Of a DNA stretch of 64,000 bases, positions 23,915-37,672 are shown piece after piece. Position 1 is the first letter of the stretch, and every line of letters begins with the position of its first letter. The notes under the pieces are model-generated. The model did no database searches and had not been told where the DNA came from. It saw nothing but the letters and a program-made list of their open reading frames with translations. A program made the position numbers and the translations under genes. The DNA comes from Sulfuricurvum sp. (lineage in GTDB: Bacteria; Campylobacterota; Campylobacteria; Campylobacterales; Sulfurimonadaceae): NCBI GenBank assembly GCA_030693335.1, contig JAUYAU010000004.1, positions 124,001 to 188,000 on the forward strand. The letters run 5' to 3'.

Positions 23915-25708
23915 ATGTTTAAACACACTATCTCCATCGTTGCATCCGCAACACTTGTTGCCGCTTTAGGGGCCCAAACTCTTACAGTAGACCCTATCGT
24001 CGTCACTGCTACAAAATCAGAGCAATCTCTTCAAAACACTACAGCAAATATTGAAGTAATCACTTCCGAACAAATTCAAGAGCGGCATTTTTCAACAATA
24101 GCAGAAGCACTTAACACACTGCCTGGTATTAGCATCACATCTAATGGTGGTATTGGTCAACTAGATTCTCTTTTTATCAGAGGAATTGATTCAAAAAGAA
24201 TCCTCATAGTAATAGACGGCATAAGATACAATGAACCCGCGGGCCTAAGTGGTGCTCCATTAGCACAGCTATCTATAGATGATATTGAGCGAATAGAAGT
24301 TATAAAAGGGGCTCAATCAAGTATCTGGGGGGCAGATGCCAGTGGCGGAGTGGTCAATATAATCACTAAAATAGCACAGAAAGGTCTTACTGCCAAAGCT
24401 GGTGTTGAATACGGAAGTTTTAATACTCAAAGCTACACAGCTACACTTTCTAATAAAACGGATCAAGGATATATTAAGATCAATGCTAATAGATTCGATA
24501 CAGATGGATTTAGTGCATTTGAAGCAAAAAAATCTTCTCCAAATTATGGAAAAAGAAGAAAGGAATTAGGATTGGAAAAGGATGGTTCTACCAACAATAC
24601 CTACAATATCCAAGGCGGAATAAATCTCTCAGATAATAATGAATTGAGTTTTTCTTATAAAAAAATCGATGCTCAATATGATTATGATAACTCGTCGAGT
24701 GACAATTTAACCAATAAATCGTATTTAAACCACTCTTTTAAATCCACAAACTACACACATACTTCCGATTCCTATAAAATCAAAGCATATGCGCAACAAT
24801 CAAAGTTCGATAGAACACAAGGCACTTTTAATGCAAAAAGCTTAGTGAATGAGTTTGGCCTGCAAACGAATATTGATTACAGTACCGACAGTGAACTGAT
24901 TATTGGACTAAATAAGCAAAACTTTGAACACATCAACAATGTACTAAAGTACCAAACTAAAGGTATCTTTATTTCCAATACCAATAGATTTAAAGACTGG
25001 CTCTTTTCTGAAGTACTGCGATATGATGACAACTCTCAATTTGATAAAAAAGCAACAGGAAAACTAGGTGCTAAATACAATTTTACCAAAGACCTTAGTC
25101 TATCCTCTAACTATGGCACTGCTTACAATGCTCCTACTTTGAGCAACCTAAGCTATACACCAACATTAAAACCTGAGAGTACCGAATCATTTGATGCTAC
25201 TGTGGAATATCAAAGTCTTAAGGCTACCTATTTTGAAAATAAAATTACCGACATGATAAACTATAGCTTTAGTCCAAGCTTTCATTATTTTAATGAAGAA
25301 GGCGAATCAGAATTCAAAGGATATGAACTCTCCTACCAAATAAAAGCAACTCAAGATATACTTTTAAATATAAACTATACTCGGTTAAGTGCAACCAATA
25401 GTGCCAATCAGAATTTAGCACGTCGACCAAAAGAACAATTAGGGTTTGCAATAGATTATTATGGAATCGAAGACTTTCATCTTAACCTAAACGGTTCCTA
25501 TATTGGCACTAGGTATGATAGTGAAAATCAAGCTGGTGCCCAAACAGGTCAATATACAGTTTGGAATACGGTAGCAAACTATACAATTAACAAAACATTT
25601 CAAACATATATCAAAATAGATAATCTCTTTGATAAATATTACCAAACCATAGATGGGTATGCAACATCTCCTCGTGCATATTATGTAGGTTTACAGGCAT
25701 CATTTTGA
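23915..25708 (+). CDS. btuB: TonB-dependent outer-membrane receptor, BtuB-type
   Basis: I start at ATG 23915, 7 nt after AAGGA, giving 597 residues with a clear signal peptide (MFKHTISIVASATLVAALGAQ). DPIVVTATKSE is the TonB box region, followed by the plug (TIAEALNTLPGISI, LFIRGID, RIEVIKGAQSSIWGADASGG, VNIIT) and a beta-barrel ending in the aromatic YYVGLQASF. Size and context (btuF-btuD-btuC and cobalamin synthesis genes downstream) indicate a cobalamin or cobinamide receptor. It is more A/T-rich than its neighbours and uses AGA/AGG for more than half of its Arg codons. The next ATG shares a base with its stop. Confidence 0.88.
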   Translation: MFKHTISIVASATLVAALGAQTLTVDPIVVTATKSEQSLQNTTANIEVITSEQIQERHFSTIAEALNTLPGISITSNGGIGQLDSLFIRGIDSKRILIVIDGIRYNEPAGLSGAPLAQLSIDDIERIEVIKGAQSSIWGADASGGVVNIITKIAQKGLTAKAGVEYGSFNTQSYTATLSNKTDQGYIKINANRFDTDGFSAFEAKKSSPNYGKRRKELGLEKDGSTNNTYNIQGGINLSDNNELSFSYKKIDAQYDYDNSSSDNLTNKSYLNHSFKSTNYTHTSDSYKIKAYAQQSKFDRTQGTFNAKSLVNEFGLQTNIDYSTDSELIIGLNKQNFEHINNVLKYQTKGIFISNTNRFKDWLFSEVLRYDDNSQFDKKATGKLGAKYNFTKDLSLSSNYGTAYNAPTLSNLSYTPTLKPESTESFDATVEYQSLKATYFENKITDMINYSFSPSFHYFNEEGESEFKGYELSYQIKATQDILLNINYTRLSATNSANQNLARRPKEQLGFAIDYYGIEDFHLNLNGSYIGTRYDSENQAGAQTGQYTVWNTVANYTINKTFQTYIKIDNLFDKYYQTIDGYATSPRAYYVGLQASF

Positions 25709-26055
25709 TGAAGATTATCAGCGTACTCTTGCTTTTATGTGTTAATATCTTTGCGAATGACATAGAAGTAACTATCATTTATGGCAATGACACCCCTGAT
25801 AAAGTGGTTACTACAACATACACAGAAGGGACAACAACTGCGCTGGATCTGCTAAAACAAGTCAGTGACGTTGTCACCGTCAAAACAGGTAAATTCACCT
25901 TTGTCCGTTCTATTGACGGGGTACAATCGAAAGTTGGAAAATTCGGATGGTTCTATCTAATGGATGGAAACTCGGTCAAAAAAATGGCAGAAAATTATGT
26001 TTTGAAGAGTGAAAAAAGTATGATGTGGGTTTATAAGGTAGAGGCATGTTATTAA
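25708..26055 (+). CDS. DUF4430 (transcobalamin C-terminal-like) secreted protein
   Basis: The 115-residue protein has a signal peptide (MKIISVLLLLCVNIFA) and one compact domain: DIEVTIIYGND, TTALDLLKQVSDV, then GKFGWFYLMDGNSVKKMAENYVLKSEKSMMWVYKVE. The G-W-x-Y-x-x-x-G pattern and the closing W-x-Y strand fit DUF4430, a fold shared with the C-terminal half of animal transcobalamin and intrinsic factor. Its place between the outer-membrane receptor and BtuF, overlapping both, suggests a periplasmic corrinoid-handling role. That role is inference; the fold call is moderately sure. Confidence 0.7.
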   Translation: MKIISVLLLLCVNIFANDIEVTIIYGNDTPDKVVTTTYTEGTTTALDLLKQVSDVVTVKTGKFTFVRSIDGVQSKVGKFGWFYLMDGNSVKKMAENYVLKSEKSMMWVYKVEACY

Positions 26056-26870
26056 AATTCTTTTTACTCATTATTATGGCAGTTCAGCTCTCGGCGATTG
26101 AGCGTATTATTGCCCTCTCTCCCGCTATCAATGAGATGATTTTTGCCCTTGATGCTGGAGGAAAGGTGGTTGGAAATACGTCCTATTGTAACACTCCGCC
26201 AGAAGCGAAAGAAATTCCAAAAGTGGGGGGATATTTTTCCCCATCGCTAGAAAAAATAGTGGCACTTTCTCCTGATATTGTTATAATGCAAGACAACAAT
26301 CTCCCCTTGAGCCAAAAGCTGATTGAATTGGGAATCAAAACGATGGTAATCAAAATCGACACTATCGACTCCATCAAAAAAGCGTTTTTCACAATAGCCA
26401 AGCCGTTACATGCCGAAGCTAAAGCGACTCTTATTACCAAGAGAATAGATGAATCCCTTTCAAGGCTAAGAGGAATTGTCCAAAACAAAAAAATTCTCAT
26501 CGTCATCGGCTCCCCCACCAATCTCTCCAAAGAGATCTACGTAGCAGGACAAAATCTCTATTTCGATGATATTATTCGAGCCAGTGGAAACATGAATGCA
26601 CTGCAAAGCAATCGTAAAGGACAACCTATCCTCAATCTCGAAAAAATACTCAAAATCAATCCTGACATTGTCATCGTTCTCGCACCGCTGATGAGGGAGC
26701 GACACCTGACACGCGAAATGATCCTCTCCCCATGGCGCAATCTTCCCATCAATGCCGCACAAACCCACTCTGTTTTTATTCAAGAAGGAGATTATGCAGG
26801 GATACCAAGCGATAGAGTTGTCCATTTTATCAATGATTTCGGAAAGCTTTTGCATGAATCTAAAAATTGA
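26046..26870 (+). CDS. btuF: Cobalamin ABC transporter substrate-binding protein
   Basis: The 274-residue periplasmic protein has a signal peptide (MLLKFFLLIIMAVQLSAI) and the BtuF/FhuD class III binding fold: RIIALSPAINEMIFALDAGGKVVG, then VGGYFSPSLEKIVALSPDIVI, an inter-lobe helix (about 105-135) and a second lobe with NLEKILKINPDIVIV and SPWRNLPINA. It delivers cobalamin to BtuCD. It overlaps the DUF4430 gene by 10 nt and the ATPase gene by 17 nt. Sequence alone cannot exclude a haem or siderophore ligand, but the neighbours favour cobalamin. Confidence 0.87.
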   Translation: MLLKFFLLIIMAVQLSAIERIIALSPAINEMIFALDAGGKVVGNTSYCNTPPEAKEIPKVGGYFSPSLEKIVALSPDIVIMQDNNLPLSQKLIELGIKTMVIKIDTIDSIKKAFFTIAKPLHAEAKATLITKRIDESLSRLRGIVQNKKILIVIGSPTNLSKEIYVAGQNLYFDDIIRASGNMNALQSNRKGQPILNLEKILKINPDIVIVLAPLMRERHLTREMILSPWRNLPINAAQTHSVFIQEGDYAGIPSDRVVHFINDFGKLLHESKN

Positions 26871-27552
26871 TCATCTCCATACCGACTACTTAAACGATAT
26901 TTCGTTTGAGCTCAATGACGAAAACGTGGTTATTTTGGGCTCAAACGGGGCAGGAAAAACCACCCTCGCCAAAGCGATTGTCAATTTAGCAGAAAATGAC
27001 CGTGTTAGCTGCAACACCAAAAAAGTGTCTGAAATGAGTGCAAAAGACAGATCACAACTTCTAAATTTTATCCCCTCAAAACTCGAAGTCTTTGATGAAT
27101 ACATTGATGTACGCGAGTTTTTGGAACTGAGTCTATTAAACGGAACTGCAGAAAAAGAAATCGAACGTGTTTTGAGTCTTTTAGAGATAACACACCTCGA
27201 AAACAAATCGTGTAAAGAAATAAGTAGCGGTGAAAGCCAGCTGGTTTTATTTGCCGGGGGACTCTTACAAAATTCTGAACTCACACTTTTTGACGAGCCT
27301 ACTGCTAATCTCGACAGTGATAAAAAGATCAAAATCTTTGAACTTTTAAAACACACTCAAAGTTTAAAAATGGTGATCACCCACGATCTCAATTTGGCAT
27401 TTCGGTTGGGTTTTCGGGTCCTTTTCTTGCAAAATGGCACCATTGCCTATGACGGCAGCTGCGAAGAGTTCTTTGCTCAAGAAAACCTCTATTGGCTGTT
27501 CGGAGATTCTATCAAACGGGTGGATGACTTTTTTATGGTGAACTACCGATGA
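26854..27552 (+). CDS. btuD: Cobalamin ABC transporter ATPase
   Basis: I start at the ATG of MNLKIDHLHTDYL (26854), with GGAAAG upstream, giving 232 residues; an upstream in-frame ATG would overlap btuF by 119 nt. Walker A is GSNGAGKTT, the signature is SSGESQ (a variant of LSGGQ), Walker B is LTLFDEP followed by TANLDS, and the H-loop is ITHD. It powers the BtuC permease. It overlaps btuF and the next gene, so coupling is tight. Confidence 0.9.
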   Translation: MNLKIDHLHTDYLNDISFELNDENVVILGSNGAGKTTLAKAIVNLAENDRVSCNTKKVSEMSAKDRSQLLNFIPSKLEVFDEYIDVREFLELSLLNGTAEKEIERVLSLLEITHLENKSCKEISSGESQLVLFAGGLLQNSELTLFDEPTANLDSDKKIKIFELLKHTQSLKMVITHDLNLAFRLGFRVLFLQNGTIAYDGSCEEFFAQENLYWLFGDSIKRVDDFFMVNYR

Positions 27553-28508
27553 AGATGCTTGTCCTGATAGGGGCGTTGATGATATTGTCCGTCTCAGCAT
27601 TCATAGGCGAAACACCGCTTGAGATTCACAAAATACTCAATCCAAATGCGATGGAGTACCTCCTTTTTTGGGATCTTCGCCTCCCCAGGGTAGCAGTTGC
27701 TTTTACAAGCGGCGCGATTTTGGCACTGGGAGGGCTGGTATTTCAAGCAGTCTTTCGGAATGCTCTTACTACCCCATTTACTCTCGGTGTTTCGAGCGGT
27801 GCGACACTTGCAACTGCATTTGGGATCATTTTTCTCCCCGCATCTCTCATCGCCTTCTCATCCCTGTTCAGCTTCTTCGGAGCATTTTCAACGGTGCTGT
27901 TACTTTTTCTCTTTGCGCGAACACTCAATGCGATGCAGACAAATTCACTCCTGCTCATCGGCATCGCCCTTTCATTTTTCTACTCCGCCGCGTTGATAGT
28001 GCTGTACTATATCAGCGATCTACAGCAAAGCTACTCCATCATCCGCTTTACCATGGGGAGCCTAAATGTTGTCGGATTTGCGAGCGTCTATGCGGTAATC
28101 GCAGCAGCATTGATATTACTGGGTGTGACGCTGAAGTACAGACATGAGCTGCGGCTTATCCTCACCTCCTACGACAACGCCTTTTTAAAAGGGGTCGAGA
28201 TCAAAAAGATCAATTTAATTCTCCTTTTTTTCGTCTCACTTAGTGTCGGTGTGAGCGTCAGCGTGGTTGGGCCCATCGGATTTGTAGGTCTGGTCATCCC
28301 CCATGTCATCAAACTGATCTACAAACAAAGCAGTGACAAGCTCATCCTTCCTGTCTTTTTTTACGGAGGAGTCTTTTTGGTTTTGTGTGACTTGATTTCT
28401 CGCAATCTCGGAACGGTTTCGGAAGTGCCTATCGGTGTCGTGACCTCGTTTATCGGGGGACCGTTTTTCATCTACCTGATATTGAAAAGAAGAAAAAATC
28501 ATGCTTAG
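27549..28508 (+). CDS. btuC: Cobalamin ABC transporter permease (FecCD family)
   Basis: The 319-residue inner-membrane protein has about nine to ten hydrophobic spans. FecCD hallmarks are LRLPRVAVAFTSGAILALGG near the start, FRNALTTPFTLGVSSGATLA, and the coupling-helix region GPIGFVGLVIPHVIK. It forms the channel with BtuD. It overlaps both flanking genes by 4-8 nt. Confidence 0.92.
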   Translation: MKMLVLIGALMILSVSAFIGETPLEIHKILNPNAMEYLLFWDLRLPRVAVAFTSGAILALGGLVFQAVFRNALTTPFTLGVSSGATLATAFGIIFLPASLIAFSSLFSFFGAFSTVLLLFLFARTLNAMQTNSLLLIGIALSFFYSAALIVLYYISDLQQSYSIIRFTMGSLNVVGFASVYAVIAAALILLGVTLKYRHELRLILTSYDNAFLKGVEIKKINLILLFFVSLSVGVSVSVVGPIGFVGLVIPHVIKLIYKQSSDKLILPVFFYGGVFLVLCDLISRNLGTVSEVPIGVVTSFIGGPFFIYLILKRRKNHA

Positions 28509-29763
28509 CCTCTGTATCAGCGCCATTGCCTCCAATCAAGGTAAAACCATCCTCAGCTCTGCACTCCTCTATTATTTCAGAGATTCCGTTCGACCTTTCA
28601 AAGCGGGGCCTGACTTCATTGATCCTCAATTTCACACAAAAATCTGCGGTACACAGAGTATCAACCTTGATGGATTCATGATGAACCCAAAACAGCTCTC
28701 ATGGCTTTACAGCCACTACAGCGATAAAAAGGTTTCCATACTCGAGGGCGTTATGGGATTTTATGATGGGATGGATCAGCGCAGCAGTGCCTATGATATT
28801 TCCAAACTTTTGAACATTCCAACCCTCTTAGTGCTTGATGGAAGTGGCAGCTATATCACCGTAAGCGCCGTGTTAAAAGGGCTAAAAACCTATAAAAAAG
28901 GAAATACGATCAAAGGGGTCGTGCTCAACCGCATCGCTTCTCAAGGCCATTATGAGCTTATTCAGACACAAATCGAAAAAGATTTTAGTGATATTGCAGT
29001 CGTGGGGTGGATATCCAACAATCTGCTTACCCTAAAAGACACCCATTTGGGGCTTGATTTGGACGATATGGATAAACTCGAAAAAATTTCACAAGAAGTA
29101 TTAACCCATATCGATATCCAAAAAATCAAAGAGATAGGCCTCTGTGAAGTCAAGGAAAATACCCGCTATCCGTTTAAAAAACTCCCAAAAACAAATCAAA
29201 AAATAGCTGTCGTGACGGATGAAAATTTCTCTTTTTTATACCATGACAATCTTCGATTTCTCCAAGAGGTATTTGCTCACGTTCTCATCATCCATCCCTC
29301 AAACGATGAATCTATCCCTGAAGACTGTGACAGTGTCTATCTCTGCGGAGGCTATGTTGAGACGGATAAAGCGTATGCGAAAATAAAGAACAGTACCCAT
29401 TTTAAAAATTCTCTGATACAGCATGCCAAAACCAAAAAAGTCTATGCGGAGTGTGCCGGACTCCTCTACCTCGGCCAGTACGTCGATGAGAAAGAGATGA
29501 GCGGGATTTTGAACGTCTCTTTCACCTTGCAAAAAAGATTTGAACGGTTGGGATACTATTACAACGAAAGCAATATCAAAGGGCACGCGTTTCACTATAC
29601 AAAACCGCGGGATGACACACATGGGTTTGATATCCTTTCTAAAGCCAAAGGGGGAAGCGGCAAGACAGGAAGCTGGCAAAGCAACCATAAAAAAGTGTTC
29701 GGGACCTATTTGCATACCATGTTCAGAAGCAATACCTATTGGGTAAAAAAGAGGTTGCTATGA
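28501..29763 (+). CDS. cbiA: Cobyrinate a,c-diamide synthase
   Basis: CbiA amidates the a and c carboxylates of cobyrinate using glutamine and ATP. The 420-residue protein has an N-terminal P-loop-like domain (ISAIASNQGKTILSSALL), KAGPDFIDPQFH, LEGVMGFYDGM, and a C-terminal glutaminase-type domain with the catalytic Cys in YAECAGLLYLG and His in FGTYLHTMF. It is the earliest biosynthetic step encoded in the cluster, so cobyrinate must come from elsewhere in the genome or from imported precursors. Confidence 0.92.
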   Translation: MLSLCISAIASNQGKTILSSALLYYFRDSVRPFKAGPDFIDPQFHTKICGTQSINLDGFMMNPKQLSWLYSHYSDKKVSILEGVMGFYDGMDQRSSAYDISKLLNIPTLLVLDGSGSYITVSAVLKGLKTYKKGNTIKGVVLNRIASQGHYELIQTQIEKDFSDIAVVGWISNNLLTLKDTHLGLDLDDMDKLEKISQEVLTHIDIQKIKEIGLCEVKENTRYPFKKLPKTNQKIAVVTDENFSFLYHDNLRFLQEVFAHVLIIHPSNDESIPEDCDSVYLCGGYVETDKAYAKIKNSTHFKNSLIQHAKTKKVYAECAGLLYLGQYVDEKEMSGILNVSFTLQKRFERLGYYYNESNIKGHAFHYTKPRDDTHGFDILSKAKGGSGKTGSWQSNHKKVFGTYLHTMFRSNTYWVKKRLL

Positions 29764-29788
29764 ACTTTTGTACTAGCAGGGGTTCTTG

Positions 29789-30592
29789 ATGGGGATCAAA
29801 ACAGCTATCACGCTAGAAGAAGTCTCGCACATAGTCTCTTGCACCCTATTAACCCCAACCGTAAATGGGGTCAGCGACAGTGTTTATCTTACTGATGAAA
29901 GCGTACTCAAACTGTTTGAATCTGCTTCTGCTTCTGCTATTTTAGAAGAAAAAGCTTTACTCCTTCACCTATCTCATCTTCCCGTTACGAAACATATCAG
30001 TGATATTTTTTTCCTCCAAAAAAAGCCTTGTGTCCTGTATGAAAAGCTCAATGGGAAAAGTCTCATCCACGCCGACAATCATCATATCATCCAAATAGCA
30101 GGATTTATGCGCCGTTTGCATCAACAAACTGCCGGTATTGCCTCTACTAACACCCCTTTATTTGAATCTTCACGGCTCCAAGCCCTTATTAGACAAACAC
30201 AGCATGTCCCGTTTCAAGAAATTTTTGATTCCATTGATCTTGAGCTCTCATGTGATGGAGTGATACACGGGGATCTGTTTTTGGATAATGTTCTTTTTGA
30301 TAACGGTGAGCTTAGCGGTGTTTTTGATTTTATCGAAGCATGTGAAGGAGATTTTTTGTTTGATCTGGCCGTCGTTGCGATCTCATGGTGTTTAGATGAG
30401 AAAGGCGATTATTCCAAAGTCGATCTCTTGCTGACCTGCTATAACGCCGACATAAGTGTTGAAAACTTTATCCCTTATATGAAATATGCCCTCCTCTATT
30501 ATTCGACTACCCGCTATCTGAACCATCGGGACTATCAAAGCCTCCTTGTCAAGATCAACTTTTTGAACGCCTACCCTAAAGGTACTATGTGA
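29789..30592 (+). CDS. ThrB2/APH-fold small-molecule kinase; candidate L-threonine kinase
   Basis: I start at ATG 29789, 6 nt after GGGG, giving 267 residues. The aminoglycoside-phosphotransferase fold is clear: the catalytic loop VIHGDLFLDNVLF (Asp162, Asn167), the metal-binding VFDF (Asp180), then ACEGDFLFDLAVVAISWC, closest in style to type II homoserine kinase ThrB2. It is placed between cbiA and bluB in a cluster that has CobD (threonine-phosphate decarboxylase) but no PduX or BluE. I therefore suggest it makes L-threonine O-3-phosphate for the aminopropanol arm. The fold is sure; the substrate is inference. Confidence 0.75.
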   Translation: MGIKTAITLEEVSHIVSCTLLTPTVNGVSDSVYLTDESVLKLFESASASAILEEKALLLHLSHLPVTKHISDIFFLQKKPCVLYEKLNGKSLIHADNHHIIQIAGFMRRLHQQTAGIASTNTPLFESSRLQALIRQTQHVPFQEIFDSIDLELSCDGVIHGDLFLDNVLFDNGELSGVFDFIEACEGDFLFDLAVVAISWCLDEKGDYSKVDLLLTCYNADISVENFIPYMKYALLYYSTTRYLNHRDYQSLLVKINFLNAYPKGTM

Positions 30593-31227
30593 ATTTCACT
30601 CTTCAAGACGCTCAGGCGCTTCAAACCATTCTTTCAGCACGCCGTGATGTCAGAGGCAACCGCTATATCGACAAAGCCATCGAATCTGAAACTTTGGAGG
30701 CGATCTTTCATGCTGCCAATTGTGCCCCATCTGTAGGCTTCTCCCAGCCTTGGGAATTTATCCTTATTAACAATTCAGACCTGCGTGAAAAGGTGTACGC
30801 AGAGTTCGAAAAAGAAAATAAAAAAGCCAAAAAAATCTTTATTGCCGATACGCTTTATCCATCATTAAAACTCGAGGGGATCAAAGAGGCCGCTTACAAC
30901 ATTGCCGTCCTCTATAAAAAGCCTACTAAAGCGATTTTAGGGCAAACTACCCAAAAGAAAGTTGGTGAATACAGTGTCGTGTGCGCCATCCAAAATTTAT
31001 GGTTAATGGCGCGTGCCTATAACATCGGCGTAGGTTGGGTGAGTATCCTAAAACCTAAAAAAATAAAAAAAATCTTGGGAATCTCTTCGCAGTACAAGCT
31101 GATCGCGTACCTTACAATGGGTTACGTCAATGAATTTTTAGATCAACCTGAACTTCAAATCCTTAACTGGGAGATAAAAAAAGAGCTCACCGAAGTGATC
31201 TCAACAAGGAACAATAATGACCATTAA
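30589..31227 (+). CDS. bluB: 5,6-dimethylbenzimidazole synthase BluB
   Basis: BluB uses O2 to cut FMNH2 apart and form dimethylbenzimidazole, the lower ligand of cobalamin. The 212-residue nitroreductase-fold protein has the family marks LSARRDVRGNRYI at the N-terminus and ANCAPSVGFSQPWEFI, followed by YNIGVGWVSIL. The start is GTG, overlapping the kinase stop, with AAAGGT upstream. It shows that this organism makes the aerobic lower ligand itself and does not need the bza pathway here. Confidence 0.9.
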   Translation: MNFTLQDAQALQTILSARRDVRGNRYIDKAIESETLEAIFHAANCAPSVGFSQPWEFILINNSDLREKVYAEFEKENKKAKKIFIADTLYPSLKLEGIKEAAYNIAVLYKKPTKAILGQTTQKKVGEYSVVCAIQNLWLMARAYNIGVGWVSILKPKKIKKILGISSQYKLIAYLTMGYVNEFLDQPELQILNWEIKKELTEVISTRNNNDH

Positions 31228-32281
31228 AACGATTTTAGGAAGCAGTGATCTTCCTGAATATTTACGCGGTAAAAAGGGAGCATTTTTCCTAAGTCTCAGC
31301 AATACCGATACAGCTAAGATTGAGGGAATTACCCAAGCTGGAATTCCGGGGATGATCCATCTGACTCCGACACTCGATGCTGAGTTTCTCTGTACCGGAG
31401 AAGTAAAAAGTCTCAAAAACATCGCTGCTACCCCCAAAGGGGTTCCAACCCCAGGCCTCATCACCCGCGCCGTTCATATGCTTCATCCATTTAGCAGTCT
31501 GGCGCTACTTGATCTTGGATTGGAGGTCAAACCTAAAATAGACTATTTTCCTCTCTATGATTTTGGAGTTACTCCCAGCGGTTCGATCGATACGGGTGCA
31601 AACATTGACGCTGTAGAACTTTTTGAAAAAGGGATGGAGTTCGCGGAAGAATATTTTTGTCGAAATGACTATATTATCCTGGGAGAATCGGTTCCCTCGG
31701 GTACGACTACTGCACTGGCAACCGCTTTGGCTCTGGGATATAATGCCCACGATAAATTCAGCAGCAGTTTTAGCAATGCTCCGACAAATACCAAGCAACG
31801 GGTCGTCGATCAAGCACTCTCGGGATGTGAGGGGGAGGAAGGGCTTTTTGAAAAACTATCACACGTCAGTGATAACATGCTCGTTTTTAATGCCGGGCTT
31901 GTTCTGGGGCTTCAAAAACGCAAAATTACCACAGTACTTGCCGGCGGAACACAAATGGCGGCTTTACTGTTGATCATCAATTCGATCCTTAAACAAACAA
32001 ATCAATCCATCAGCAGCCATAAACTCGCACTCTGTACGACAAAATGGGTCTATGAAGACCCCAATTCGGATATCAAAGGGCTGCTGGAAATGCTTGATTT
32101 CCCAATCAATGCCTATTACGTTGATTTTGATTTTTCACTCACACACCATCCTGCACTAAAACTCTATGATGAAGGGGAAGCAAAAGAAGGAGTCGGTGCA
32201 GGAGGCGCCCTTATGTACGCTTGCCTCAACGGTATTACAAAAGAGCAAATCACACGTAGAGTGGAGAGCTTTTTGCAATGA
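31217..32281 (+). CDS. cobT: NaMN-dependent phosphoribosyltransferase CobT, archaeal/cyanobacterial (UPF0284) type
   Basis: The 354-residue protein attaches the lower-ligand base to ribose phosphate from nicotinate mononucleotide, giving alpha-ribazole phosphate. Recognisable parts are ITQAGIPGMIHLTPTLDAEF, GVPTPGLITRAV, GESVPSGTTTALATALALG, VLAGGTQMAALLL and the C-terminal EGEAKEGVGAGGALMYA. These belong to the UPF0284/TIGR00303 branch and not to the enterobacterial CobT. It overlaps bluB by 11 nt and cobU by 4 nt, matching their consecutive steps. Confidence 0.9.
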   Translation: MTIKTILGSSDLPEYLRGKKGAFFLSLSNTDTAKIEGITQAGIPGMIHLTPTLDAEFLCTGEVKSLKNIAATPKGVPTPGLITRAVHMLHPFSSLALLDLGLEVKPKIDYFPLYDFGVTPSGSIDTGANIDAVELFEKGMEFAEEYFCRNDYIILGESVPSGTTTALATALALGYNAHDKFSSSFSNAPTNTKQRVVDQALSGCEGEEGLFEKLSHVSDNMLVFNAGLVLGLQKRKITTVLAGGTQMAALLLIINSILKQTNQSISSHKLALCTTKWVYEDPNSDIKGLLEMLDFPINAYYVDFDFSLTHHPALKLYDEGEAKEGVGAGGALMYACLNGITKEQITRRVESFLQ

Positions 32282-32769
32282 AAGTACTCTATTTCGGAGG
32301 GCAAAAGTCGGGTAAAAGTTCTCTGGCGGAACGTCATGCCAAAGAACTCTCTACCCATCAGCCCTACTATCTCGCGACATACGATAGCCGTTTCGGCGAC
32401 AGTGAAATGCAAAACCGTATCGATAAACACCGAGACACCCGAAAAGAGGATTTTATAACGATCGAAGAGACCCATAACCTCGCCTCTGTAATCCACCCCA
32501 ATCACACCTACCTGATCGATTGTATCTCCATGTGGCTGCTTAATCACATTGATGACGACGAAGCCATTCTCATCAGCGCCATCGAAGAGCTCGAAAACAT
32601 CGACGCCAACATAGTGTTTGTCCTCAATGACGTTACCTGCGGTGTTATCCCCATCGATGCAATGAGTCGCCGCTACGTCGATTTCAGCGGTCTCATAGGA
32701 CAAAAGCTCGCCTCACTGTGTGATGAAGTCTACGAAGTAAAATTCGGCCTGCGGATTCGCCTCAAATGA
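32278..32769 (+). CDS. cobU: Adenosylcobinamide kinase / guanylyltransferase
   Basis: The bifunctional enzyme phosphorylates adenosylcobinamide and transfers GMP to it. The 163-residue protein has the P-loop FGGQKSGKSS, YLATYDS, the guanylylated-His region NRIDKHRDTR, the Walker B-like TYLIDCISMWL and NDVTCGVIPIDAMSRRYVD, the counterpart of the usual NEVGxGIVP segment. It is slightly shorter than the E. coli protein (181). It overlaps both neighbours by 4 nt. Confidence 0.9.
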   Translation: MKVLYFGGQKSGKSSLAERHAKELSTHQPYYLATYDSRFGDSEMQNRIDKHRDTRKEDFITIEETHNLASVIHPNHTYLIDCISMWLLNHIDDDEAILISAIEELENIDANIVFVLNDVTCGVIPIDAMSRRYVDFSGLIGQKLASLCDEVYEVKFGLRIRLK

Positions 32770-33773
32770 ACCTCTTTGAGCATGGCGGTGATGTGAATAC
32801 GTTTGCCGTACACTGCGGTTGTACACCCGCAGAGGTTATTGACCTCTCCAGCAACATCAACTTTATCACCCCCTTGGTCGATTTTAGTACCGTCACTCTC
32901 AATGCCTATCCTGACTCTAAAAAGCTAACACAAACGTTAGCCGGTTATTATGGCGTTCATACGAATGAGATAGAGCTTTTTAACGGAGGCTCTTCGGCTA
33001 TTTTCTCCCTCATGCGCTTTTTTGATCATACGACCTGCACGATCTACTCACCTGCCTATTTAGAATATAAAAAAGCGGCATTGCTGTCTGGCAAAAAAGT
33101 GACCCTTATCAATCGTTTTAACGATAGTATTCAAAAAGTAGAAGCCAATTCTTTGGTCATCTTCGTCAACCCCTCAACTCCTGATGGACGGTATTATGAT
33201 TTGAATGCACTGATGAGGGAGTGGATGGTAAAAAACTGCACGATACTCATCGACGAATCGTTCTTGGAATTTTGCGGAGGCGAATCGGTAACGAGGTACC
33301 TCCAAACCTATCACAAACTCTATGTTTTAAAATCACAGACCAAGTTTTACGGATGTGCAGGGGTGAGGGTCGGAATCGTCCTCTCATCACACGACAATAT
33401 TCGTGCACTCAAAGAAAAAGAACCTCTGTGGAAAATCTCGGTACTTGATAGCCATTTTCTCATCAGTGCCTTGGCGAATGAGCCGTTTCGTACGCTATCT
33501 AAACAGTTAAATACAGAAGCGAAAACGTATCTGAAAACACTCCTCGACCACTCTCTCCTTTTTAAGGAGGTGTTTGAGAGCGATGCCAACTTTTTCCTCG
33601 TTCGTCTCGCTCACATGAATGCGAAGGAGTTTCAGGAACAACTTATTGCGCATAAAATCATGGTACGTGATTGTTCCAATTTTGATTTTTTGGATGAGCG
33701 GTATGTGCGGATTGCGGTGAAAAGTACTCCTAATCTCAAACGATTCGAGGAGGCGCTGTGTTCTTTGACATAG
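32766..33773 (+). CDS. cobD: Threonine-phosphate decarboxylase (CobD, PLP enzyme)
   Basis: The 335-residue fold-type-I PLP enzyme resembles HisC: LSSNINFITPL at the start, ELFNGGSSAIFSLMRF, FVNPSTPDGRYYD, ILIDESFLEF with the PLP-ring Asp, and the Schiff-base Lys in LKSQTKFYGCAGVRVG. In cobalamin clusters this family makes (R)-1-amino-2-propanol O-2-phosphate for CbiB. Histidinol-phosphate aminotransferase is the alternative, but position directly before cbiB favours CobD. It overlaps cbiB by 16 nt. Confidence 0.86.
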   Translation: MNLFEHGGDVNTFAVHCGCTPAEVIDLSSNINFITPLVDFSTVTLNAYPDSKKLTQTLAGYYGVHTNEIELFNGGSSAIFSLMRFFDHTTCTIYSPAYLEYKKAALLSGKKVTLINRFNDSIQKVEANSLVIFVNPSTPDGRYYDLNALMREWMVKNCTILIDESFLEFCGGESVTRYLQTYHKLYVLKSQTKFYGCAGVRVGIVLSSHDNIRALKEKEPLWKISVLDSHFLISALANEPFRTLSKQLNTEAKTYLKTLLDHSLLFKEVFESDANFFLVRLAHMNAKEFQEQLIAHKIMVRDCSNFDFLDERYVRIAVKSTPNLKRFEEALCSLT

Positions 33774-34621
33774 CCCTCATCGCCTATATCACCGACCGCA
33801 TCTTCGGTGAGTTCACCTTCATCCGTCACCCCGTAGTGATAATGGGGGATATTATCACCGCTTTTCAAAAACGGTTTTACTCTGATACTATCATGCGCGG
33901 GATTTGGCTCGTCTTTTGGCTGTTAGCAGTCGTGTTAGCCCTCGTTTATCCGATCACCCTAATCCAAAATCCGTGGATTTTAGGAGTTATCGCCTCAATG
34001 GGAATCGCAGGTAAAATGCTCTACGATAGCGTCCATAACGTCTTGTCCGATCCTCAATCAATCCGCTATCTCGTCAGTCGTGACACGGAAGATCTCAGCC
34101 CAAGCGAGATCAACAAAGCCGCCATCGAGACCTACGCCGAAAATCTCAGCGACGGGGTGATCGCGCCGCTGTTTTATCTTCTGTTATTTGGGTTAGTCGG
34201 ATTGTTTGTCTACAAAGCGGTCAATACCCTCGATTCGATGGTAGGCTACCGCAACGATCGTTACGAAAAGTTCGGCAAGGTGAGCGCGCGGTTGGACGAT
34301 GTTCTCAATTACATCCCCTCTCGTATTACGGCGATTATCATCTTGGTTCTCTTCGGCAAGTTTCGTCAATTCAAACAAACATGGCGTTACGGCGCGTTAC
34401 ACGAGAGCCCCAATGCGGGGTACCCGATTTCGGCGATGGCAGTGTCACTGAATCTCTCTCTGGGGGGGGCAACCTCCTATTTTGGAACACTCAAAGCAAA
34501 GCCCTATTTCGGGGAGGGACGAACAGAGATTACTGCCGAGGATGTACGTGCCGCGTTATCGCTTCGGCAGCGGCTTGATATATTCCTCATCACCCTTTTA
34601 ACCCTAGGACTCCTCTTATGA
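33758..34621 (+). CDS. cbiB: Adenosylcobinamide-phosphate synthase
   Basis: This inner-membrane enzyme joins cobyric acid with aminopropanol phosphate. The 287-residue protein begins with an IALIAYITDRIFGEF segment followed by HPVVIMGDIITAF, then several spans, DLSPSEINKAAIETYAEN with SDGVIAPLFY, NTLDSMVGYRNDRYEKFG and ARLDDVLNYIPSRI, all family hallmarks, plus ESPNAGYPISAMA. It follows CobD, its substrate supplier, and precedes cobQ. Confidence 0.94.
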   Translation: MFFDIALIAYITDRIFGEFTFIRHPVVIMGDIITAFQKRFYSDTIMRGIWLVFWLLAVVLALVYPITLIQNPWILGVIASMGIAGKMLYDSVHNVLSDPQSIRYLVSRDTEDLSPSEINKAAIETYAENLSDGVIAPLFYLLLFGLVGLFVYKAVNTLDSMVGYRNDRYEKFGKVSARLDDVLNYIPSRITAIIILVLFGKFRQFKQTWRYGALHESPNAGYPISAMAVSLNLSLGGATSYFGTLKAKPYFGEGRTEITAEDVRAALSLRQRLDIFLITLLTLGLLL

Positions 34622-36009
34622 AACCCATCTCCATTTTCGGCACCTCCAGCGATGCGGGCAAATCAACTCTCACGTTTGTCATCGGCAAAATCTTGCAGGA
34701 TCTAGGGTACAGCGTAGCTCCGTTCAAAGCCCAAAACGTCTCCAACAATTCCCATGTCACCGATGATGGAAGCGAGATTGCTATTGCTCAATATTTTCAA
34801 GCGCAAGTGCTGGGAGTTCCAACGAGCTATCACCTCAATCCGGTCCTCCTTAAATCAGGCTCAGGAAACCGTGCCTCTATGATCGTCAAGGGAAAAGTGG
34901 TCGAGGAGAAGGATGTGCGGGAGTATTATCGTGATCTCGATCTTCTCAAACCTGCTGTTGATGAGTGTTTTGAATATCTGCAATCACGGTATGACTGTGT
35001 CGTATGTGAGGGGGCGGGTAGTCCGGTCGAGTTGAATCTCATGGACAAAGACCTCTCCAACATCTACATCGCGACGCGTTTTGAAACCAAAATCATCCTT
35101 GTCGCCGACATCGAGCGTGGAGGGGTTTTCGCCTCTATCTGGGGGGTTTACAATCTCCTCCCCGAAGCGTTACGTGCCAATGTCATCGGTGTCATCGTCA
35201 ATAAATTTCGCGGTGACATGAGCCTCTTTGACGAGGGGGTAAAAATCATCGAGGAGCGGTTTAAGATTCCCGTTCTTGGTGTTCTCCCCTATGGACATCT
35301 GAACCTCGGATTTGAAGACAGCGCATCACTGATGAACTATTCTCAAAACAAAACCGATACCAAGATCACCGTAGGGGTTATCGCCTATCCGACGATGAGC
35401 AACTACAATGACATCGAACCCCTGATCGCCGATGAAGAAGTCATGGTAGAGTTCATCACGGCGAACGTCTCACTCGAATCGTATGACCTCATCATTCTTC
35501 CCGGATCGAAACTCGTCATCCAAGATTTGCGATGGCTTAAAAAAATAGGACTGTACGATAGGCTTCAAAAACATACTAAAGCCATTTACGGTATCTGTGG
35601 GGGATATCAAATGATGTTTCAAAGCATCGATGATCCTTATGCCATCGAGAGCCAGCAGTCTGACAGCGAAGATGCTCTTGGATGGATCGATGATACCATT
35701 GTCCTTGAGAAAGAAAAAAAACTTTCCAAAGGTTCCTACGATCTTTTTAACGACCGCGTAAGCGGATTTGAAATTCGTCACGGCGAAAGCCAAAAAAAGC
35801 AGTTATGGTTTGATGAAAAAGCCGTTCGTGGCTCTTTTGTCCATGCCCTCTTAGAAAATAATTCTTTTCGAACACGATACTTTCAGACCCTGAATTGCAC
35901 TTATATAGGGTATGATTTCCAAAACCGTAAAGATCAGATTTTAAACCAGTTTATCCAAGAATGCCGAGTAAAACTTGATATTGAAAGGATCCTAAATCAT
36001 GTCCTATAA
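34618..36009 (+). CDS. cobQ: Cobyric acid synthase
   Basis: CobQ (CbiP) amidates four side chains of adenosylcobyrinate a,c-diamide. The 463-residue protein has the N-terminal P-loop GTSSDAGKSTL, PFKAQNVSNNSHV, VCEGAGSPVELNL and VADIERGGVFAS, then a class I glutaminase-like domain with the Cys nucleophile in IYGICGGYQMMF and the His in GSFVHALLE. It overlaps cbiB by 4 nt and the Cys-rich gene by 11 nt. Confidence 0.94.
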   Translation: MKPISIFGTSSDAGKSTLTFVIGKILQDLGYSVAPFKAQNVSNNSHVTDDGSEIAIAQYFQAQVLGVPTSYHLNPVLLKSGSGNRASMIVKGKVVEEKDVREYYRDLDLLKPAVDECFEYLQSRYDCVVCEGAGSPVELNLMDKDLSNIYIATRFETKIILVADIERGGVFASIWGVYNLLPEALRANVIGVIVNKFRGDMSLFDEGVKIIEERFKIPVLGVLPYGHLNLGFEDSASLMNYSQNKTDTKITVGVIAYPTMSNYNDIEPLIADEEVMVEFITANVSLESYDLIILPGSKLVIQDLRWLKKIGLYDRLQKHTKAIYGICGGYQMMFQSIDDPYAIESQQSDSEDALGWIDDTIVLEKEKKLSKGSYDLFNDRVSGFEIRHGESQKKQLWFDEKAVRGSFVHALLENNSFRTRYFQTLNCTYIGYDFQNRKDQILNQFIQECRVKLDIERILNHVL

Positions 36010-36439
36010 CCAATGGTTCCAAGAACATGCGGCCAAACACCGCGCCATCATGGACAAACTCACCCACTTAAGCGACCAAGAAATCATTGAATACTTCCGA
36101 TTTGAAAATATGGTGGTACTAGAGCCTACATTTTGTCCTCTCTATGCAGATAATAAAAAATGTCACGATACTCCTGAACTCAACTGTTATTTGTGCGCCT
36201 GCCCCAATTTCAGATTCAACGACAAGGGATTTAAACAAGAAGAGGAAAAAACCCTTTTTAGCACCTGCTCGATCGAAAGTCCAGACGGAGACCGCTACAT
36301 CAGTGAAACCGCTATCCATCAAAATTGTGCGGGATGTCTCGTCCCTCACAGAGAGAGCTACATCAAAAAAGTATTTGACCGTGACTGGCTGAAAATTATG
36401 AACGAGGTACCGTGTGAAACAAGTCATTCTGGGGATTAA
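35999..36439 (+). CDS. Cysteine-rich PF04071/COG2158-type metal-binding protein
   Basis: The 146-residue protein has nine cysteines (46, 55, 63, 66, 68, 90, 110, 113, 139). The arrangement FCPLYADNKKCH, NCYLCACPNF, STC and NCAGCLVPH corresponds to the PF04071 cysteine-rich small domain, where CxxC pairs and a closing PH are conserved; the family is poorly characterised and presumed to bind metal or an Fe-S cluster. A helical N-terminus of about 40 residues precedes it. It overlaps cobQ by 11 nt and cobS by 26 nt, so it is built into the operon. A redox or metal role in late cobalamin synthesis is inference. Confidence 0.75.
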   Translation: MSYNQWFQEHAAKHRAIMDKLTHLSDQEIIEYFRFENMVVLEPTFCPLYADNKKCHDTPELNCYLCACPNFRFNDKGFKQEEEKTLFSTCSIESPDGDRYISETAIHQNCAGCLVPHRESYIKKVFDRDWLKIMNEVPCETSHSGD

Positions 36440-37160
36440 GTTCGCACTGAGCTATTTCACCGTTCTTCCGATCCACTTTGGAGCTAATGACGATCTTTCA
36501 CAGCCCAAAGTTCTATCAAATATGCTTCTTACGCTTCCCTTTATTGGATTGTTGCTCTCTGCTCTCACACTCGGTATCTTTGTTTCTTTTGAATCGTTAG
36601 GATGGCTTGCAGCGATCATAGCGAGCGTACTCTATATGGCTTTATATGGCTTTATCCATACCGAAGCGATCATCGATGTTACTGATGCTGTTTATGCCAA
36701 ACACAGCGGTAAAGACCCCTATGCGATTATCAAAGAGCCTGGCGTCGGAGCGATGGGCGTTTTGTACGGAGTGAGTTTTCTCCTTCTCAAAATCGCCGCC
36801 CTTTCGACGCTGTTGATGTATCATCTGTTTATCCCCTTTATGGCCATAGCCGCTATCAGCCGTATTTCTCTTCTTGTATTGATACGCACATATGAATTTC
36901 GTTCTTCATTTGTTTCTCAACTAAAAGAGAGCCTGTATTTTGTACCTCTGACGGTTCTACTTTTGATTTATGGGGCACTCGCCTGGTGGTTTCTCTCCTG
37001 GCCAGGGTTAGCTCTCTTCGGGCTTGGTATTGTCAGTGCATTACTTCTCTCAACCCTTGCCAAAAAAACACTTGGCTTTATCAATGGGGATGTGCTGGGA
37101 ATGTCTCTGGAGGGGGTTGAATTCATCCTTATTCTTGCGGTATTATTGGCATGCATCTGA
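36414..37160 (+). CDS. cobS: Adenosylcobinamide-GDP ribazoletransferase (cobalamin synthase)
   Basis: CobS joins adenosylcobinamide-GDP with alpha-ribazole phosphate at the inner membrane. The 248-residue polytopic protein starts at a GTG, 6 nt after GAGG. It begins GIKFALSYFTVLPI, and the active-site stretch HTEAIIDVTDAVYA followed by IIKEPGVGAMGVL corresponds to the family's HxDGxxDxxDG...MKDxxxGAxG. The C-terminus FINGDVLGMSLEGVE is also typical. It is overlapped by the Cys-rich gene and by cobC. Confidence 0.93.
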   Translation: MKQVILGIKFALSYFTVLPIHFGANDDLSQPKVLSNMLLTLPFIGLLLSALTLGIFVSFESLGWLAAIIASVLYMALYGFIHTEAIIDVTDAVYAKHSGKDPYAIIKEPGVGAMGVLYGVSFLLLKIAALSTLLMYHLFIPFMAIAAISRISLLVLIRTYEFRSSFVSQLKESLYFVPLTVLLLIYGALAWWFLSWPGLALFGLGIVSALLLSTLAKKTLGFINGDVLGMSLEGVEFILILAVLLACI

Positions 37161-37672
37161 CTCTTTTACGTCATGCACCCCCATATCCAGAATATCACGG
37201 CTGCTACAATGGGCACACCGACATCCCTATCGATGCATCTCTTTTTGACCATGACAAAATACAAGCTCTCCTGCATCGCCGCTTTGACCGTATCTACTCC
37301 TCAGATTTACAGCGGTGTACCACAACCTTGGAAACAATGGGGTTCGCCTCGTTTACCACTGACCCACGCCTTCGAGAAGTATGTTTCAAACCTTCGATAG
37401 AGGGAAAAACCTTTGCCCAAATCGAAGCCTCAGATGGTTTTGATCCCCGTGTTTTAGACTCAATGGAAACCTGGCACCATTATGTCTGTGACGAATCACT
37501 TTCCATTTTCCGCACACGAATACAAAGTTTTTTGGATGAGCTTGCGCATGATAAGAACATTTTAATTTGTGCGCATGGCGGTACGATCACCATGATTTTG
37601 TCTCTTCTAAACTCTACCGTTGAATATAAGCCATTAGGCTACCTTGACCATATAAGTGTAAGTTTACGATAA
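37151..37672 (+). CDS. cobC: Alpha-ribazole phosphatase (histidine phosphatase family)
   Basis: The 173-residue protein has the phosphohistidine motif LLRHAPP (His8) at the N-terminus, GHTDIPID, YSSDLQRCTTT, LREVCF and a second active-site His in LICAHGGTITM. It probably removes the 5' phosphate from alpha-ribazole phosphate or adenosylcobalamin phosphate. The usual RHG triplet is RHA here, as often in CobC proteins. It is the last gene of the cobalamin cluster; tamA follows after 29 nt without a terminator. Confidence 0.88.
   Translation: MHLTLLRHAPPYPEYHGCYNGHTDIPIDASLFDHDKIQALLHRRFDRIYSSDLQRCTTTLETMGFASFTTDPRLREVCFKPSIEGKTFAQIEASDGFDPRVLDSMETWHHYVCDESLSIFRTRIQSFLDELAHDKNILICAHGGTITMILSLLNSTVEYKPLGYLDHISVSLR

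Follow-up and report, generated by a model that had tools for sequence, protein, structure and literature searches.

An APH-fold kinase gene in the cobamide operon of Sulfuricurvum sp. as a candidate L-threonine kinase of Campylobacterota

Results

The kinase gene and its operon

The window, a stretch of 64,000 nucleotides from a contig of Sulfuricurvum sp., contains a cobamide gene cluster in which all genes lie on the same (forward) strand. The cluster has btuF, btuD and btuC for a corrinoid ABC transporter (26046-28508; assigned from sequence and tblastn conservation in relatives) and cbiA for cobyrinic acid a,c-diamide synthase (28501-29763; family search), followed by the subject of this study, an intact open reading frame of 267 amino acids (29789-30592) for an APH-fold kinase that is a candidate L-threonine kinase. 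The gene sits between cbiA and bluB and upstream of cobD. After it come bluB for dimethylbenzimidazole synthase (30589-31227; TIGR02476, 195.7 bits), an archaeal-type cobT (31217-32281; TIGR00303), cobU (32278-32769; PF02283, 135 bits), cobD for threonine-phosphate decarboxylase, presumably the next enzyme of the pathway (32766-33773), cbiB for adenosylcobinamide-phosphate synthase (33758-34621; PF03186, 283 bits, and TIGR00380 above cut-off) and cbiP for cobyric acid synthase (34618-36009; family search). The remaining genes encode a cysteine-rich protein that is conserved in these cobamide clusters (35999-36439; weak PF04071 match), CobS (36414-37160; assigned by position and by tblastn conservation in relatives) and a CobC-like alpha-ribazole phosphatase (37151-37672; TIGR03162, 82.6 bits, below cut-off). 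The CobD of the window scored 227.7 bits on TIGR01140, which is below the cut-off of 290.55, yet this was its best family, and the protein aligned to Salmonella CobD (1lc5) with an E-value of 4e-25. A riboswitch search of window positions 15000-40000 gave no match at the gathering threshold.

The kinase frame starts with the ATG at 29789, just downstream of a GGGG run; the start at 29786 in the list of open reading frames arises because an in-frame TTG stands one codon before this ATG. Its stop codon overlaps the GTG start of bluB by 4 bp, while cbiA ends 25 bp upstream of the kinase with no overlap, and translational coupling is therefore expected on the downstream side only. The original prediction had placed the gene between cbiA and bluB with coupled translation; the location and the coupling to bluB were confirmed, whereas coupling to cbiA was not.

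In profile searches the kinase matched Pfam APH (PF01636) with 78.7 bits, where the family cut-off is 23.2. The catalytic loop HGDLFLDN occupies residues 160-167 (30266-30289, forward strand) and is followed by DFIEACEGDFLFDL. In an alignment of 48 relatives, H160, D162, N167 and D180 were all invariant, which agrees with the HxDxxxxN motif and the additional Asp that characterize the APH family. By analogy with that family, D180 (30326-30328, forward strand) is presumably the metal-binding, DFG-like aspartate.

The kinase clade is related to, but separate from, ThrB2

To find relatives of the kinase, 84,980 species were scanned with an alignment of 23 relatives. The best 80 loci came from Campylobacterota (Sulfuricurvum, Sulfurimonas, Sulfurovum, Arcobacteraceae and others) and then from proteobacterial homoserine kinase II (ThrB2). 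A tree made with a quick method and midpoint rooting split the Campylobacterota clade from proteobacterial ThrB2 with a support of 100, and the kinase was 24-28% identical to proteobacterial ThrB2. Cobamide genes were present in the stretch around the kinase at 31 of the 38 Campylobacterota loci, as opposed to the proteobacterial loci, which had none nearby apart from two isolated ABC-ATPase matches. No paper that names this kinase family was found among the open-access papers searched. One locus (L042) with a Campylobacterota-type cobamide cluster is titled Desulfosporosinus, but this title is probably wrong because the same coordinates occur in a genome that belongs, by the order-level search, to the order of the window.

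The catalytic region had been described from the start as resembling that of homoserine kinase II in an APH-fold kinase, and this description is borne out by the Pfam match and by ThrB2 being the closest named family. Nevertheless, the kinase scored far below the ThrB2 cut-offs (87.5 against 271 on NF003558, and 58.4 against 255.9 on TIGR00938). Five more clade members scored 84-121 on NF003558. A proteobacterial ThrB2 reached a score of 415. The residues N30, P69, N198, D199, E223, R237, W239 and P249, which are found in nearly all of 16 ThrB2 proteins, were missing from the 32 clade members or occurred in few of them, and K41 of the clade is replaced by T or Q in ThrB2. In Fusobacterium vincentii, a ThrB2-like kinase is encoded about 5 kb from cobU (L210:15001-15930); because it retains several of the ThrB2-type residues, it was rejected as a clade member.

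The best solved relative by sequence was 2ppq, the homoserine kinase of Agrobacterium, and the same structure was ranked first with an AlphaFold2 model of the kinase (mean pLDDT 95). Foldseek gave 2ppq an E-value of 3e-15, with the next match at 7e-11 and aminoglycoside kinases four orders behind. In VIA-align, 2ppq reached a Z-score of 26.9 (rmsd 2.4 over 256 residues), followed by a match at 23.4. Both profile and model thus assign the kinase to the APH fold and not to the GHMP fold of PduX and BluE. Lower in the VIA-align ranking were the aminopropanol kinase 6ef6, with a Z-score of 20.1, and several choline/ethanolamine kinases, with Z-scores of 19-20, although the fold alone shows no function. 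These APH-fold examples would fit an amino-alcohol kinase that converts (R)-1-amino-2-propanol or ethanolamine to the linker phosphate for CbiB, as a salvage route beside CobD. We consider such an activity unlikely, since ThrB2 is clearly the nearer structure, the choline-kinase family gave no match in profile searches, and the enzyme would be redundant with the accompanying cobD, which makes the same product.

GHMP kinases in the genome of the window

The genome of the window (2.17 Mb in 18 contigs, 99.99% complete) was searched as a whole for GHMP kinases. Two proteins scored above the cut-off, namely a ThrB (TIGR00191, 277 bits against a cut-off of 168) and an IspE, both true members by profile, and one further match below the threshold was an IspE-like fragment. 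In a Rhodobacterales cobamide cluster, a PduX-like gene at the place expected for BluE matches GHMP (PF00288) weakly, with 18 bits, and the threshold of our search should catch matches at about that level. Beyond ThrB and IspE, the profile search of this genome found no PduX- or BluE-type GHMP kinase. This agrees with the original prediction of a cluster with CobD and without such a kinase, and neither of the two observations that were expected to speak against a threonine kinase, a genome in which no other ThrB is encoded or a pduX or bluE gene elsewhere, was made. Among the known enzymes of this genome the kinase would thus fill a threonine-kinase step that is otherwise missing. A second, shortened IspE-like frame on contig C5 of the assembly (L007:1102-1629) may be contamination or a pseudogene.

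Presence of the kinase follows that of CbiB

Among the 151 genomes compared at the family level, the kinase was present in 46 and CbiB in 46, with both present in 43 (Fisher 2e-30). At the level of the order Campylobacterales, 54 of 397 near-complete genomes had the kinase, and CbiB was found in 51 of these (Fisher 2e-35), though both P-values overstate independence because the genomes share ancestry. Several of the six mismatches at the family level were due to contig ends or incomplete assemblies. One other genome (G077) had a single cbiB that was not part of a cobamide cluster, and another (G001) was a true exception, having cobD and cbiB but not the kinase. Nearly all carriers had two GHMP kinases, one the size of ThrB and one the size of IspE, and these were identified as such in the genome of the window.

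A homoserine kinase that has come to lie in the operon by chance would explain why ThrB2 is the closest named family and structure. However, the kinase falls far short of both ThrB2 profiles, the residues invariant or almost invariant in ThrB2 are absent or rare in the clade, carriers already have a GHMP kinase of ThrB size (ThrB by profile in the window's genome), and presence of the kinase follows that of CbiB. Taken together, this makes a homoserine kinase highly improbable.

The gene that most commonly followed the kinase on its 3' side was cobD: of the 29 loci in which this neighbour was identified, 21 had it there. Of the 41 kinase-cobD pairs in the family, 39 were within 5 kb of each other and 20 were within 150 bp. 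The kinase adjoined bluB or cobT instead of cobD in some carriers, and many genomes with CobD lack the gene, which could indicate that the kinase acts on some other intermediate of cobamide synthesis or on a lower-ligand nucleoside, or that it has a regulatory role. This is improbable in view of the prevalence of cobD as neighbour, the presence of CobU for the cobinamide kinase step, the direct formation of ribazole phosphate by CobT, and the small amino acid that serves as substrate of the nearest fold relative.

Five Sulfurospirillum genomes lack the kinase and have a different decarboxylase

Five genomes lacked the kinase and had, next to cbiB, a decarboxylase only 24% identical to the CobD of the window. 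This decarboxylase was identical over 392 of 392 residues to a protein of a Sulfurospirillum plasmid whose annotation reads norcobamide biosynthesis serine-O-phosphate decarboxylase, and it matched PDB 6oux end to end. We use the genus name Sulfurospirillum for these genomes because of this identity with the protein of the named plasmid, and we count them as one contrast because they share one near-identical cluster. Serine phosphate arises in ordinary metabolism on the way to serine, and a serine-phosphate decarboxylase therefore needs no extra kinase. An earlier study ascribes to the Sulfurospirillum enzyme the presumed formation of the ethanolamine phosphate linker (PMC4585668). Another genome from this genus group (G338) had an ordinary CobD, 54% identical to that of the window, together with the kinase.

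Serine and threonine being close analogues, an L-serine kinase that supplies serine phosphate for the ethanolamine linker of norcobamides might be envisaged. Yet the known serine-phosphate decarboxylase clusters are without the kinase and serine synthesis already makes serine phosphate, and we regard this alternative as very doubtful. The near-confinement of the gene to cobamide-making Campylobacterota, its frequent position beside cobD and its absence where the serine-phosphate decarboxylase occurs instead lend support, at the level of sequence comparison, to the initial proposal of a non-orthologous L-threonine kinase.

Exceptions to the association

Of the 91 CbiB carriers at the order level, 40 were without the kinase. 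Apart from Sulfurospirillum, most of them were members of the family groups f8 (probably Arcobacteraceae) and f5 (probably Sulfurovaceae), whose CobD was 45-57% identical to that of the window. Nearly all of the kinase-less genomes had two GHMP kinases and no additional PduX-like one as compensation, and no kinase was found beside cobD in those kinase-less clusters that were inspected. Judged by eye, the cobD neighbours in such clusters resembled a transglutaminase, a membrane protein of the MarC type and an SDR; a further neighbour was a calcineurin-like phosphatase. On a CobD tree, presence and absence of the kinase required about seven changes of state, and a comparison of CobD residues revealed none that mark the kinase-less genomes, the differences being minor and mostly conservative.

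Since many of these genomes combine an ordinary CobD with no extra PduX-like kinase, they would have another threonine kinase or perform the step otherwise. Archaeal CobD of Methanosarcina (MmCobD) is reported, in work by Tavares from 2018 that PMC6461909 cites, to be bifunctional, and by analogy a bifunctional CobD as source of threonine phosphate is one possibility. The CobD-bearing Campylobacterota loci that lack the kinase, and in most cases also any PduX-like GHMP kinase beyond the usual two, are L118 (genome G001), L145-L165 and L175-L177. Calcineurin-like phosphatases (PF12850/PF00149) occur in the cobamide clusters of L153 (8062-8808, just before cobD) and L118 (14176-15018), where they perhaps stand in for CobC.

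Conversely, the kinase lay outside a cobamide cluster in seven Campylobacterota loci (L043, L048, L051, L053, L057, L058 and L060). Five of the seven genomes had a full CbiB elsewhere, one had a weak match and one had none. Because the genomes with a weak or no CbiB are those of L057 and L058, a second role for the kinase family is possible.

Discussion

Predictions of cobamide pathways often lack the L-threonine kinase step, and most genomes of producers verified by experiment have no pduX annotation, among others (PMC6461909). We consider it likely that the kinase described here phosphorylates free L-threonine (EC 2.7.1.177 type), feeds CobD and acts as a non-orthologous stand-in for PduX or BluE. 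We infer this substrate and reaction from context, and the gene is missing from many relatives that have CobD. From the same stock as ThrB2, an APH-fold kinase would have been recruited to L-threonine, taking the gamma-phosphate from ATP and placing it on the 3-hydroxyl to give L-threonine-3-phosphate, with D162 as putative catalytic base and N167 and D180 as putative metal ligands. CobD would then decarboxylate this product to (R)-1-aminopropan-2-ol 2-phosphate, which CbiB would join to adenosylcobyric acid. The genome of the window encodes both CobD and CbiB, as is expected for EC 2.7.1.177.

The proposed enzyme can be compared with several known systems. With ThrB2 (NF003558, TIGR00938; 2ppq) it has in common the APH fold, an N-terminal MxVxT, the HGDLF-DN loop and a structural alignment over the full chain, whereas it differs in K41, a shorter C-terminus, the gene context, the lack of ThrB2-invariant residues and an identity of only 24-28%. 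PduX is a GHMP kinase, and a Rhodobacterales protein at the BluE place matches that family weakly, which sets both apart from the APH fold of our kinase; the proposed reaction and the position in the pathway are shared. PduX of Salmonella and BluE of Rhodobacter catalyze the L-threonine kinase step upstream of CobD and CbiB (PMC6249242), and BluE is called non-orthologous to PduX in another study (PMC8123684). A further non-orthologous L-threonine kinase, CbiU of Dehalobacter restrictus (Dehre_1608), has been proposed from a corrinoid operon without pduX (PMC4285132). CbiU was thus also found by its place in an operon and its function is likewise only proposed, but it is a phosphoglycerate-mutase/archaeal homoserine-kinase-like protein (TIGR02535) of Bacillota. 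Finally, the microcompartment aminopropanol kinase 6ef6 has an APH fold and a small amino-alcohol substrate, but with 15% identity and another gene context it is clearly further from the kinase than ThrB2. By its context the kinase is most likely of the EC 2.7.1.177 kind, although it belongs neither to the PduX family nor, by profile and residues, to ThrB2.

In more general terms, it seems reasonably probable that dedicated free L-threonine kinases of the APH fold, related to ThrB2, serve many Campylobacterota as a solution independent of PduX and BluE, and that their loss marks lineages with a changed linker synthesis. If true, a second fold would supply the missing step in many Campylobacterota of the deep sea and of groundwater, annotations as homoserine-kinase-like or resistance kinases would be corrected, and the prediction of ordinary versus nor-type cobamides for each lineage would be helped.

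Two small proteins of the locus may be mentioned. The gene for the cysteine-rich protein (35999-36439 in the window) is often next to the kinase gene in relatives and lies within 400 bp of it in 10 of 18 loci, and a related small cysteine-rich protein with no assigned role occurs in Sulfurospirillum multivorans (PMC4585668). A small DUF4430 protein (PF14478, 39 bits) is encoded at 25705-26055, between the TonB receptor gene and btuF, a location that hints at a role in the uptake of corrinoids.
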